From positions 1 to 64,000 of the forward strand of contig WRAH01000001.1 in the NCBI GenBank assembly GCA_009780315.1: DNA of 64,000 nucleotides. The letters run 5' to 3'. The notes below the pieces were generated by a model. That model made no database searches. It had not been told where the DNA came from and was given only the letters and a program-made list of their open reading frames with translations. The position numbers and the translations under genes were made by a program. Source of the DNA: Defluviitaleaceae bacterium. GTDB lineage: Bacteria > Bacillota > Clostridia > Lachnospirales > WQUN01. Shown piece after piece: positions 18,634 through 21,617 of this stretch. Every line of letters starts with the position of its first letter. Position 1 is the first letter of the stretch.

Positions 18634-19923
18634 TTAACTATACTTCATGATTTCTGCATGAACCTCTGCAATGGAAATGTTATTGTCATCAGCTATTTTA
18701 GCGATATCTTCATGCTCCAGCTTTGTCTTTTTTACACCATAACCACTGGAAGTTTTTATCCGTACCGAACCATATTTTGTTTTGACTTCCGAATGTTCTT
18801 TTTTCAAAGTGTATCGACGGCTTGCATATTCTCTAACACCAAGGGTTGATGTGTGTTTGAACATTAACTTTAACATTTTTTCTTTATCACCTATACGGCA
18901 CATACAAGTGAACAGCAACCCTGCACGGCCTTTTTTCATGCCTATGGGTGATGTATAAACATCTAATGCACCCTCTTGCATGAGTACCTTTTGTGCATAT
19001 GCTATGGCTTCGGCAGTCATGTCGTCAATATTACAAGCAAGTTCTACAACGTCCTCCAAATGGTTTTCAGATTCTCCGATGAATGCACGTACACAATTTG
19101 CCTTGGCAAAATCCTTTGTACCCATACCATAACCTATTTCGGAAATATTCATTTCCGGCAATGTGCGAAACTCACTTGCAAAATGCTTTAATATTGCCGC
19201 ACCTGTTGGCGTGCAAAGCTCACCTTTAATCATGGGGTCACTGTAAATTGGCACACCTTTCATGATAAATGCCGTGGCAGGGGCAGGCACGGGTAAAATA
19301 CCATGAGAGCATTTAACATGCCCACTGCCAACATTGACAGGAGATGCCACTATTTTTTCAGGGGCAAGTGCTTCCATTAACATGCATACGCCTGTAATGT
19401 CTGCCACAGCATCCATTTCCCCCACTTCGTGAAAATGAACTTGTGTCACAGGCACGCCATGGGCGTGACTTTCTGCCTCGGCAATAAGATTATAAATACT
19501 TAAAATGTTTTCTTTAACAACATCTGACACTGCCAAGTGGCTAATTAAATGCTTAATTTCATCAAAACTACCATGAGCATGTCCACTTTTATCATGGGTG
19601 TGAGCATGACTATGTGAATGCTCATGGTGGTGGTCGTGTTCGTGATGATGATGGTGATGTTCGTGGTCATGGCTATGGTCATGCCCATGATGCTCGTGAT
19701 GGTGGTCATGAGATTCTTCTTCACGCCCATTGACTTTAACGCGCACTTTTGTGCCTGTTATTCCGCATTTTACACTTTTTTCACGGCTAACAATAACATT
19801 CGGAATCCCTACATTGTTTAGTCTTTTGATAAAATCGTCTGGGTCTGTATGCAATTCTAACAATGCCGCCATAATCATATCTCCAGCCGCACCCATATTG
19901 CATTCAAAATATAATGTTTTCAA
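18634..19923 (-). CDS. larC: LarC, nickel insertion for the pincer cofactor
   Basis: 429 aa. LarC inserts Ni into pyridinium-3,5-bisthiocarboxylic acid mononucleotide, using CTP, to make the nickel-pincer cofactor of lactate racemase-type enzymes. Visible signatures are the N-terminal FECNMGAAGDMIMAALLEL, a roughly 45-residue His/Asp-rich segment (about residues 72-117) likely to hold nickel, VHFHEVGEMDAVADI, GELCTPTGAAIL, and the C-terminal CNIDDMTAEAIAY domain. Both halves are in one frame, unlike Lactiplantibacillus where larC is split and read by frameshifting. It directly follows larB. Confidence 0.95.
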   Translation of the reverse strand: MKTLYFECNMGAAGDMIMAALLELHTDPDDFIKRLNNVGIPNVIVSREKSVKCGITGTKVRVKVNGREEESHDHHHEHHGHDHSHDHEHHHHHHEHDHHHEHSHSHAHTHDKSGHAHGSFDEIKHLISHLAVSDVVKENILSIYNLIAEAESHAHGVPVTQVHFHEVGEMDAVADITGVCMLMEALAPEKIVASPVNVGSGHVKCSHGILPVPAPATAFIMKGVPIYSDPMIKGELCTPTGAAILKHFASEFRTLPEMNISEIGYGMGTKDFAKANCVRAFIGESENHLEDVVELACNIDDMTAEAIAYAQKVLMQEGALDVYTSPIGMKKGRAGLLFTCMCRIGDKEKMLKLMFKHTSTLGVREYASRRYTLKKEHSEVKTKYGSVRIKTSSGYGVKKTKLEHEDIAKIADDNNISIAEVHAEIMKYS

Positions 19924-20688
19924 TTAGCTCACACTCCTTCTGGGGTGGTTTATCATACTGGCAAGATATCCACCACCAAAACCATTGTCAATATTCATGG
20001 TACAAACACCGCTTGCACAGGAGTTTAACATGGTTAAAAGTGCTGAAAGCCCACCAAAGTTTGCGCCATATCCAATGCTTGTTGGTACAGCAATCACTGG
20101 ACAATCTGCAAGTCCACCCATTACACTTGGTAACGCGCCTTCCATGCCTGCCACAGCTACAATGGCCTGTGCTTGCATAACTATTTCAATTTTAGAAAGC
20201 AATCTGTGAAGCCCTGCAACACCAACGTCGTATAGACGAATCACCTCATTGCCTAAAGCTTCGGCAGTGAGTGCCGCCTCTTCTGCAACAGGCAAATCTG
20301 TTGTACCGCCAGTGGCCACTACTATTTTGCCAACACCATTGGGGGTAGGTATATCACCAACTATACCCACACGGGCAAGTTCATGATAGTTGATTTCATG
20401 GGTTTTTCCAACCACGTCAGCAGCCTCTTTTGACATTCTGGTTATCAAAATTGTCTTTTGATTTTTTGCCCTCATGGCAGATACGATTCCGCTGATTTGT
20501 TCAGGGGTTTTGCCTTCACCATAAATCACTTCTGCAATGCCTTGACGCAACTCGCGGTGATGGTCGATTCTGGCATATCCAAGGTCTTCATAAGGCTGCA
20601 AACGTAGTTTTAGCATGGCATCCTCTGGGGAAAGTGTCCCTTTTTTTACATCTCTTAAAATATCCAGCGATGGGTTTGTACTCATCAT
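19924..20688 (-). CDS. larB: LarB, carboxylase/hydrolase for pincer cofactor
   Basis: 254 aa. LarB carboxylates nicotinic acid adenine dinucleotide and releases AMP, giving the P2CMN precursor. The N-terminal helical region (SPEDAMLKLRLQPYEDLGYARID) is followed by a PurE-like core: EVIYGEGKTPEQI, VATGGTTDLPVAEEA, IVAVAGMEGALPSVMGGL, and GYGANFGGLSALLTMLNSC near the end. It overlaps larE by one base at 20688 and is one base away from larC, so all three are one transcript. Confidence 0.95.
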   Translation of the reverse strand: MMSTNPSLDILRDVKKGTLSPEDAMLKLRLQPYEDLGYARIDHHRELRQGIAEVIYGEGKTPEQISGIVSAMRAKNQKTILITRMSKEAADVVGKTHEINYHELARVGIVGDIPTPNGVGKIVVATGGTTDLPVAEEAALTAEALGNEVIRLYDVGVAGLHRLLSKIEIVMQAQAIVAVAGMEGALPSVMGGLADCPVIAVPTSIGYGANFGGLSALLTMLNSCASGVCTMNIDNGFGGGYLASMINHPRRSVS

Positions 20689-21431
20689 TATCTTGCCTCC
20701 ATATCAAATAAAATTATTGGAAAATGTGGTTTGATGGCATTTAAAATGGCTTCTCTTTTTTCTATTACATTTGAAATTTGATTTTGCGGAAATTGCAGAC
20801 GTGCGGCATCATGATATACGCGCACCCTAAAATCTGAAAATCCTAGTGAAAATAATGCATCTTCTGCCCCTTCAACTTTTTGAAGCAGTGCCGCCGTAAT
20901 GATTTGATTGGCTGGGATACGGGTTGCCAAACATGCATATGATGGTTTATCCCAAGTAAATAACCCTGCTTCTTTTGAAAGACGGCGAATTTCATCTTTA
21001 GTCAGCCCACATTCCCGCAAAGGTGAACGAACATGCATTTCTGCCAAAGCTTTCATGCCAGGGCGGTCATCTGCATCATCTGACGCATTTGTGCCGTCAA
21101 TGATTAGCGAATAGCCATCGGCTTTGGCACGCTCCACCAATGAGCCAAAGATTGCGCATTTACAGTGATAACAACGGTCAGGCGGATTGGCCAGTACTGT
21201 TTTATTTTCCATCACATCTAAATTTAAGACAGTCATATCTGCGCCAATGAGATTTGCCAGTTTTTTTGCTTCTTCAAACTCAAACTTAGGCTGAAATGCT
21301 GCCTGTACATAGTACGCCTTCACATCTGCACCATATCTTAGCCCTGCAAACAGTAAGTAAGACGAATCCACTCCGCCAGAAAACCCAATGGCAACCTTAG
21401 GATTTTCCTTGAAAAATTGTGCCAATGTCAA
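20688..21431 (-). CDS. larE: LarE, sulfur transferase for pincer cofactor
   Basis: 247 aa. LarE adenylates the carboxylates of P2CMN and swaps in sulfur. The PP-loop SGGVDSS is near residue 20, the cysteine cluster PPDRCYHCKC near 85, followed by DGTNASDDADDRPG and PSYACLATRIP. Whether it is the sacrificial-cysteine or the iron-sulfur type I cannot settle from reading. The likely start is TTG at 21431 with AAGGAG 10 nt upstream; out-of-frame ATGs lie between. The lactate racemase gene larA is not in the window. Confidence 0.93.
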   Translation of the reverse strand: MTLAQFFKENPKVAIGFSGGVDSSYLLFAGLRYGADVKAYYVQAAFQPKFEFEEAKKLANLIGADMTVLNLDVMENKTVLANPPDRCYHCKCAIFGSLVERAKADGYSLIIDGTNASDDADDRPGMKALAEMHVRSPLRECGLTKDEIRRLSKEAGLFTWDKPSYACLATRIPANQIITAALLQKVEGAEDALFSLGFSDFRVRVYHDAARLQFPQNQISNVIEKREAILNAIKPHFPIILFDMEAR

Positions 21432-21437
21432 AAAACA

Positions 21438-21551
21438 TCATCTCCTTTTCATCAAAAAAATAATGCCAAAAAGTACTTGCGCTCCTTCATGTAGCACAAG
21501 ATACCCTTTGGCATCATTAAAAATTTGTTTAACCTGTGAAATTTCGCACAT
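21438..21551 (-). CDS. Putative 37-aa ORF in the larE leader
   Basis: Reads MCEISQVKQI then FNDAKGYLVL, HEGAQVLFGI and IFLMKRR. The composition looks like a real protein, with an amphipathic start and a hydrophobic, then basic, end. Its TGA overlaps the larE ribosome site (AAGGAGATGA), an arrangement typical of translational coupling. No clear ribosome site precedes it; ATG 21557 or GTG 21566 would lengthen it by 2 or 5 residues. A terminator-like hairpin lies inside it. It could be a leader peptide, a genuine small protein or chance. I recognise no family. Confidence 0.4.
   Translation of the reverse strand: MCEISQVKQIFNDAKGYLVLHEGAQVLFGIIFLMKRR
21454..21512 (-). terminator. Attenuator-like terminator just upstream of larE
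   Basis: On the minus strand GCCAAA pairs with TTTGGC, and above it GTATCTTGTGCT pairs with AGCGCAAGTAC (one bulge, one G-U). The helix is followed by ATTATTTTTTT. It lies 20-80 nt before the larE start with no complete minus-strand gene that obviously needs it, so it could control read-through into larEBC. Translation of the overlapping 37-codon ORF would prevent it from folding. Confidence 0.6.
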
Positions 21552-21573
21552 CTTCATGACATGCACTAGCCAT

Positions 21574-21617
21574 ATTATGACATATACTTATCTCATTGTC
21601 TATAGGCACTTGCCTAT
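21574..21617 (-). promoter_or_regulatory. Candidate lar promoter with operator palindrome
   Basis: TAGACA (21602-21597) and CATAAT (21579-21574) on the minus strand are 17 nt apart. Directly upstream and touching the -35 is the dyad ATAGGC-AAGT-GCCTAT (21617-21602). A repressor bound there would block the promoter. The dyad contains the stop codon of the 48-aa upstream gene. Confidence 0.5.

Follow-up and report, generated by a model that had tools for sequence, protein, structure and literature searches.

A family of structured leaders before larE and other nickel genes in Clostridia, probable transcription attenuators with DUF3842 as a candidate regulator

The larE gene of this Defluviitaleaceae bacterium is preceded by a leader that we judge probably to belong to an unnamed family of cis-acting attenuators for nickel acquisition and synthesis of the nickel-pincer nucleotide (NPN), antiterminated by a trans-acting factor, most likely DUF3842. 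That the family is a conserved, structured cis element, apparently unnamed, is in our view almost certain; that it is a default-off attenuator requiring a trans-acting factor is likely.

The window, that is, the whole 64,000-nucleotide stretch analyzed, encodes larE (20688..21431, TTG start at 21431; ATP-dependent sacrificial sulfur transferase, TIGR00268, 244 bits against a cut-off of 150), larB (19924..20688; AIR carboxylase-like, PF00731), and larC (18634..19923; Ni insertion, PF01969, 445 bits), all on the minus strand, as are the other window features given here. A sigma-70-type promoter (21574..21602), consisting of TAGACA (21602-21597), a 17-nt spacer, and a TG-extended CATAAT (21579-21574), predicts a transcript start at about 21567. 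The 5' end of the transcript folds into hairpin P1, GCAUGUC-AUGAA-GAUGUGC (21546..21564), supported by covariation. It is followed by the putative antiterminator hairpin P2', GAUGCC-AAAG-GGUAUC (21500..21515), whose 5' arm is common to a long, imperfect intrinsic terminator hairpin (21462..21518, supported by folding and covariation) with outer arms AAUGAUGCCAAAGGGUA / UACUUUUUGGCAUU, an inner helix at 21500-21476, and the apex C-AUGAA-G. A T7 tail (21454..21460) and the AGGAG ribosome-binding site of larE (21442..21446), both read from the sequence, complete the leader. The original prediction of a hairpin with a T7 tail just before the larE ribosome site is borne out: the hairpin folds at -32.3 kcal/mol with z = -7.1, far from chance, since none of 200 shuffles equaled it, and the entire leader gives z = -5.2. 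P1 (21564-21546), the most informative part of the leader, was absent from that prediction. BLASTN found no second copy of the leader in its own genome, indicating that it is not a repeat or a mobile palindrome. Also on this strand, immediately 5' of the promoter of larE, lies a 48-codon Cys/His-rich ORF (MQNCKKYKPKPTNAQSHHCHPKAECQSCVYFSRQNCKAHNPQSVEFTA, 21760-21614) with a good AAGGAG site, possibly encoding a small metal-binding protein.

The hairpin is also present upstream of larE in relatives, since larE genes about 80% identical, from termite-gut Clostridia, share the same leader; in operons in which an ABC transporter precedes larE, the leader has shifted to the head of that longer unit. 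Covariance models grown from the window sequence (3, then 6, then 13 sequences) were searched against 392 genomes of the order and 391 of the class, together with targeted reading of gene neighborhoods, and 51 leaders in Clostridia were kept by eye on their structure and downstream gene. The genome-wide scans were strictly filtered and miss weak members; most leaders of NikM-type operons were found only by reading DUF3842 neighborhoods. About a dozen raw model matches were rejected by their downstream gene as plain terminators. A match at G000:C18 was likewise rejected as a plain terminator, and one in genome G013, made of near-identical GGTACCATACGGTACC repeats, as a repeat.

Across the family, the P1 loop C-[A]NGAA-G is conserved, and the stem sequences are wholly different among leaders. 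The 33 P1 loops measured comprise AUGAA (12), UGAA (6), CGAA (5), ACGAA (4), AGAA (4), and AGGAA (2), and the closing pair is C-G in 29. Stem pairs such as GUUAAC/GUUAAC, GCCGAC/GUCGGC, UUCCGC/GCGGAA, and CUUGGC/GUCAAG can be checked directly. P1 covaries, among 13 sequences, with two-sided compensatory change in 7/7 pairs and 98.8% of cells paired; the outer helix of the terminator is 94% paired with two-sided change at 4 pairs, and its inner helix scores 10/10 pairs, counts that lean towards the model because the alignments behind them were fitted to it. The covariation score for P1 plus terminator is 0.613 versus 0.305, exceeding all 500 shuffles, with slid controls at or below 0.16, and that for P1 plus P2' alone is 0.584 versus 0.251. 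In 27 of the 32 leaders measured, a consensus -10 lies 8 to 13 nt ahead of P1, suggesting that P1 is the first element transcribed. P2', whose usual form is (A)UACC-AYGAA-GGUA(U), repeats the P1-type hairpin inside the 5' arm of the terminator, and the linker between the two hairpins, measured in 20 leaders, is unconserved and spans 29 to 59 nt. Two or more NGAA-loop hairpins occur in 30/51 leaders, compared with 0.6% of dinucleotide shuffles. A strand-swap pairing between P1 and P2, judged by eye, came to just 4 to 5 bp, found no further support, and was discarded.

P2' and the terminator share a 5' arm and are mutually exclusive. In the 40 of 51 leaders in which P2' could be placed, its 5' arm is paired into the terminator, which is favored by a mean of 8.2 kcal/mol; in the window, forcing P2' costs 13.3 kcal/mol relative to the terminator fold. 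The preference for the terminator implies that the leader terminates without help, so that its default state, as modeled, is probably OFF. A promoter, a terminator, and an exclusive P2' are thus conserved before larEBC and before other nickel genes, the general arrangement of a transcription attenuator with a gene downstream, in which regulated read-through is our prediction. The earlier suggestion that the larE operon is controlled by transcription attenuation is hence supported.

Nickel is the thread common to the genes controlled by these leaders. They precede larEBC directly, or larEBC behind a FecBCD-type ABC transporter, behind a NikB/NikA-type (Nik-type) ABC transporter, or behind FmdE and then FecBCD. 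Others precede NikM (CbiM with a PDGLE domain) with CbiQ, a methyltransferase with NikA (599 bits against a cut-off of 393), or larC followed by an ECF S-component and a kinase (L069). Most often, the target is an ECF S-component accompanied by a uridine/nucleoside-kinase-type P-loop kinase, separate or fused.

The pairing of this ECF S-component (LPMHIPVLLCG family) with a nucleoside-kinase-like P-loop protein is regular (L069:3262-4390, L068, L071, and L116-L135), and the kinase-like protein is either separate from it or fused to an IQDxVKLIYQNEFAGGH domain. As a working hypothesis, the pair could serve to salvage dephosphorylated NPN, since it follows larC in the L069 operon and some genomes of this kind have LarA without LarC. 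Several genomes with ECF-type leaders lack both LarA and LarC, which means that NPN cannot be the sole purpose of the system; NPN as the only ligand is accordingly doubtful. Three genomes of the window's family (G000, G007, and G016, 93 to 96% complete) carry larB, larC, and larE, and LarA (PF09861) was undetected in them, so they seem to make the nickel-pincer cofactor without a known user. Another genome (G133) has 2 leaders and 8 PF09861 matches, of which 7 are LarA-family racemases above the family cut-off. An azaaromatic (yjdF) riboswitch lies directly 3' of the FmdE gene in one leader-controlled ABC operon (L073:6088-6186, minus strand).

Which factor would hold these hairpins? The candidate is DUF3842 (PF12953), found in 135/391 genomes of the class sample (34%). 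There it occurs in 23/23 genomes with curated leaders versus 112/368 others (Fisher p = 6e-12, or 2.8e-8 with all 27 raw matches, both computed ignoring kinship between genomes), and the only match genomes that lack it (G521, G646, G706, and G743) had already been read as carrying plain terminators. The gene falls within the neighborhood of 19/33 leaders. In lar operons it immediately precedes the leader, beside ECF-S/kinase operons it sits just downstream in convergent orientation, and it is nearly always outside the leader-controlled unit; the window genome has a single DUF3842 gene on another contig. In one genome, a leader of the family stands before DUF3842 itself (L136:3972-4088, minus strand) and another before the following NikA, which suggests autoregulation in that genome. 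Conversely, 112/135 DUF3842 genomes gave no model match. About half of 39 DUF3842 neighborhoods without a model match hold NikM, Nik ABC, FecCD, LarB, or ECF-S genes, and a leader was found by eye or at low E-value in at least a dozen of the 39.

An AlphaFold2 model of DUF3842 from a two-sequence alignment has a Rossmann-like alpha/beta fold (pLDDT 80.5, pTM 0.80) with weak, generic matches to PDB structures, and comparison of the structure model found no RNA-binding relative. The median pI is 5.9. Sequence comparison with PDB entries gave no match, no relatives were found in viral contigs, and no paper on DUF3842 was found in the open-access literature. A nucleotide-binding fold would suit NPN sensing, and RNA binding is not evident from it. 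That DUF3842 works the leader as an RNA-binding regulator is a serious proposal, to which we give slightly less than even odds. More tentatively still, DUF3842 may be the first member of a novel class of antiterminators that bind RNA and sense nickel, or sense NPN by way of the Rossmann-like fold. Acting on tandem [A]NGAA hairpins, such a protein would govern the entire nickel regulon in many Clostridia, comprising the transporters, NPN synthesis, and the predicted NPN-nucleoside salvage by ECF-S plus kinase.

In the mechanism we propose, transcription would begin just before P1, and by default the long terminator would form and stop transcription before larE. A trans-acting factor, most likely DUF3842, would hold the tandem C-[A]NGAA-G hairpins P1 and P2', occupying the 5' arm of the terminator and allowing read-through; it would act when nickel or NPN is scarce and let go of the RNA when they are plentiful. 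Both the direction of control and the identity of the ligand, nickel or NPN, are what we infer. The termite-gut lar group, including the window, fits this scheme less simply. Its P2' loop is AAAG, AAAA, AAGA, or AAGAA (AAAG in the window), degenerate relative to the family consensus AYGAA, and it is the terminator that carries an NGAA loop at its apex, C-AUGAA-G in the window, so that binding of the factor would not obviously antiterminate. Either recognition of P2' is relaxed in this group or the factor uses P1 and the terminator apex.

The hairpins might instead be read without a protein, with Ni2+, NPN, or a related small molecule binding the tandem NGAA hairpins directly and stabilizing P2' or the terminator, and DUF3842 merely a coregulated or pathway protein. 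Small tandem-hairpin riboswitches such as guanidine-II are known, some leaders (G539a and G616) contain a single hairpin, and DUF3842 resembles a Rossmann-type nucleotide-binding or metabolic protein. However, a loop of 4 to 5 nt with its closing pair, next to an unconserved linker, offers little for a selective pocket, a ligand that turns genes ON through P2' must signal need rather than sufficiency, and the co-occurrence of DUF3842 would be left unexplained, so we consider a riboswitch unlikely, though worth keeping in mind.

Less probable again is that another RNA-binding protein, such as an ANTAR-like or other dimeric antiterminator encoded elsewhere, binds the hairpins, with DUF3842 being a linked enzyme or a protein that handles nickel. 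The layout matches ANTAR targets, with two hairpins sharing a common loop and the second overlapping the terminator (PMC3369931, PMC8934654), but the loops and linkers differ from those of ANTAR targets, as set out below, and the neighborhoods read showed no other regulator gene recurring near the leaders.

A strong hairpin with a T tract could also be an ordinary constitutive terminator, or a mobile palindrome, that regulates nothing, and about a dozen raw matches were indeed plain terminators, but covariation of the P1 and P2' loops and stems, a fixed distance to the promoter, one functional gene set, and, against a mobile palindrome, the single genomic copy make this very improbable for the family. 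Least credible of all is the peptide reading with which the hairpin was first interpreted, either attenuation that depends on a translated leader ORF or a larE-coupled small protein: the 37-codon ORF (MCEISQV..., 21438..21551) does overlap P1 and the terminator, and its frame stays open up to the larE ribosome site in the window, where its TGA touches AGGAG, but in relatives of larE the reading frame that opens at the equivalent ATG ends after 7 to 10 codons (MKVCACK*, MKVCKLTENQ*, MKVCNVLSK*, and MKVCAGL*), it is closed in nearly all other leaders as well, many P1 loops (UGAA, CGAA, and AGAA) lack the ATG, and P1, as the extreme 5' end of the transcript, leaves no room for a ribosome site ahead of the ORF. 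The conserved, translated ORF overlapping a terminator that marks leader-peptide attenuators was thus not seen on comparing relatives, and neither version of the original proposal finds support. Relatives that keep the same leader have the frame closed, which means that the RNA and not the peptide is conserved; we therefore judge the ORF a non-gene and regard the peptide reading, by sequence comparison, as already refuted.

The proposed default-off attenuator, worked by a trans-acting factor, would bear on the control of nickel uptake in Clostridia without a known nickel regulator and on the control of nickel-pincer cofactor synthesis outside lactobacilli. It brings together a single RNA element, a defined regulon, and a candidate regulator, and, if true, a role would follow for DUF3842, a protein encoded by a third of the sampled class genomes.

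The novelty of the family was judged against Rfam 15 and the open-access literature, in which nothing relevant was found on larE, NPN, or nickel leaders or riboswitches. The guanidine-II (mini-ykkC) riboswitch likewise consists of tandem small hairpins with a repeated loop, but the loops of the nickel family are not ACGR and are not self-complementary. The TwoAYGGAY motif (RF01731) also has two hairpins with a common loop consensus, a consensus that differs from the one described here, and it was absent from the Rfam matches of the leaders scanned even at E of 5 to 10. Rfam families, including guanidine-II, NiCo, Moco, and TwoAYGGAY, gave no gathering-score match in the window leader and 8 neighborhoods, and permissive scans of 3 relatives were also without a match. 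The NiCo (czcD) riboswitch and repression by NikR resemble the family in linking gene control to nickel, but the Rfam NiCo model has no match in the leaders scanned. NikR, a repressor, occurs in fewer than half of the organisms that have NikABCDE, and nickel control independent of NikR was therefore expected (PMC2667541). The family also resembles the ANTAR-target leaders (eutP/G/S/A with EutV, nasF with NasR, and amiE with AmiR), which share dual common-loop hairpins, a second hairpin that excludes the terminator, and default termination; in the window, P2' can form with its degenerate loop. In ANTAR targets, the loops have six bases, with A1 and G4, and the linkers in eut leaders are 5 to 12 nt (PMC3369931, PMC8934654), whereas the nickel family has a 4- to 5-nt [A]NGAA loop with a C-G closing pair and nickel genes as targets, the A1/G4 hexaloop being absent from the 33 P1 loops measured and the short linker from the 20 leaders with 29- to 59-nt linkers. 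The leader thus resembles an ANTAR target in the way it works, but its loop and its linker place it outside that class.
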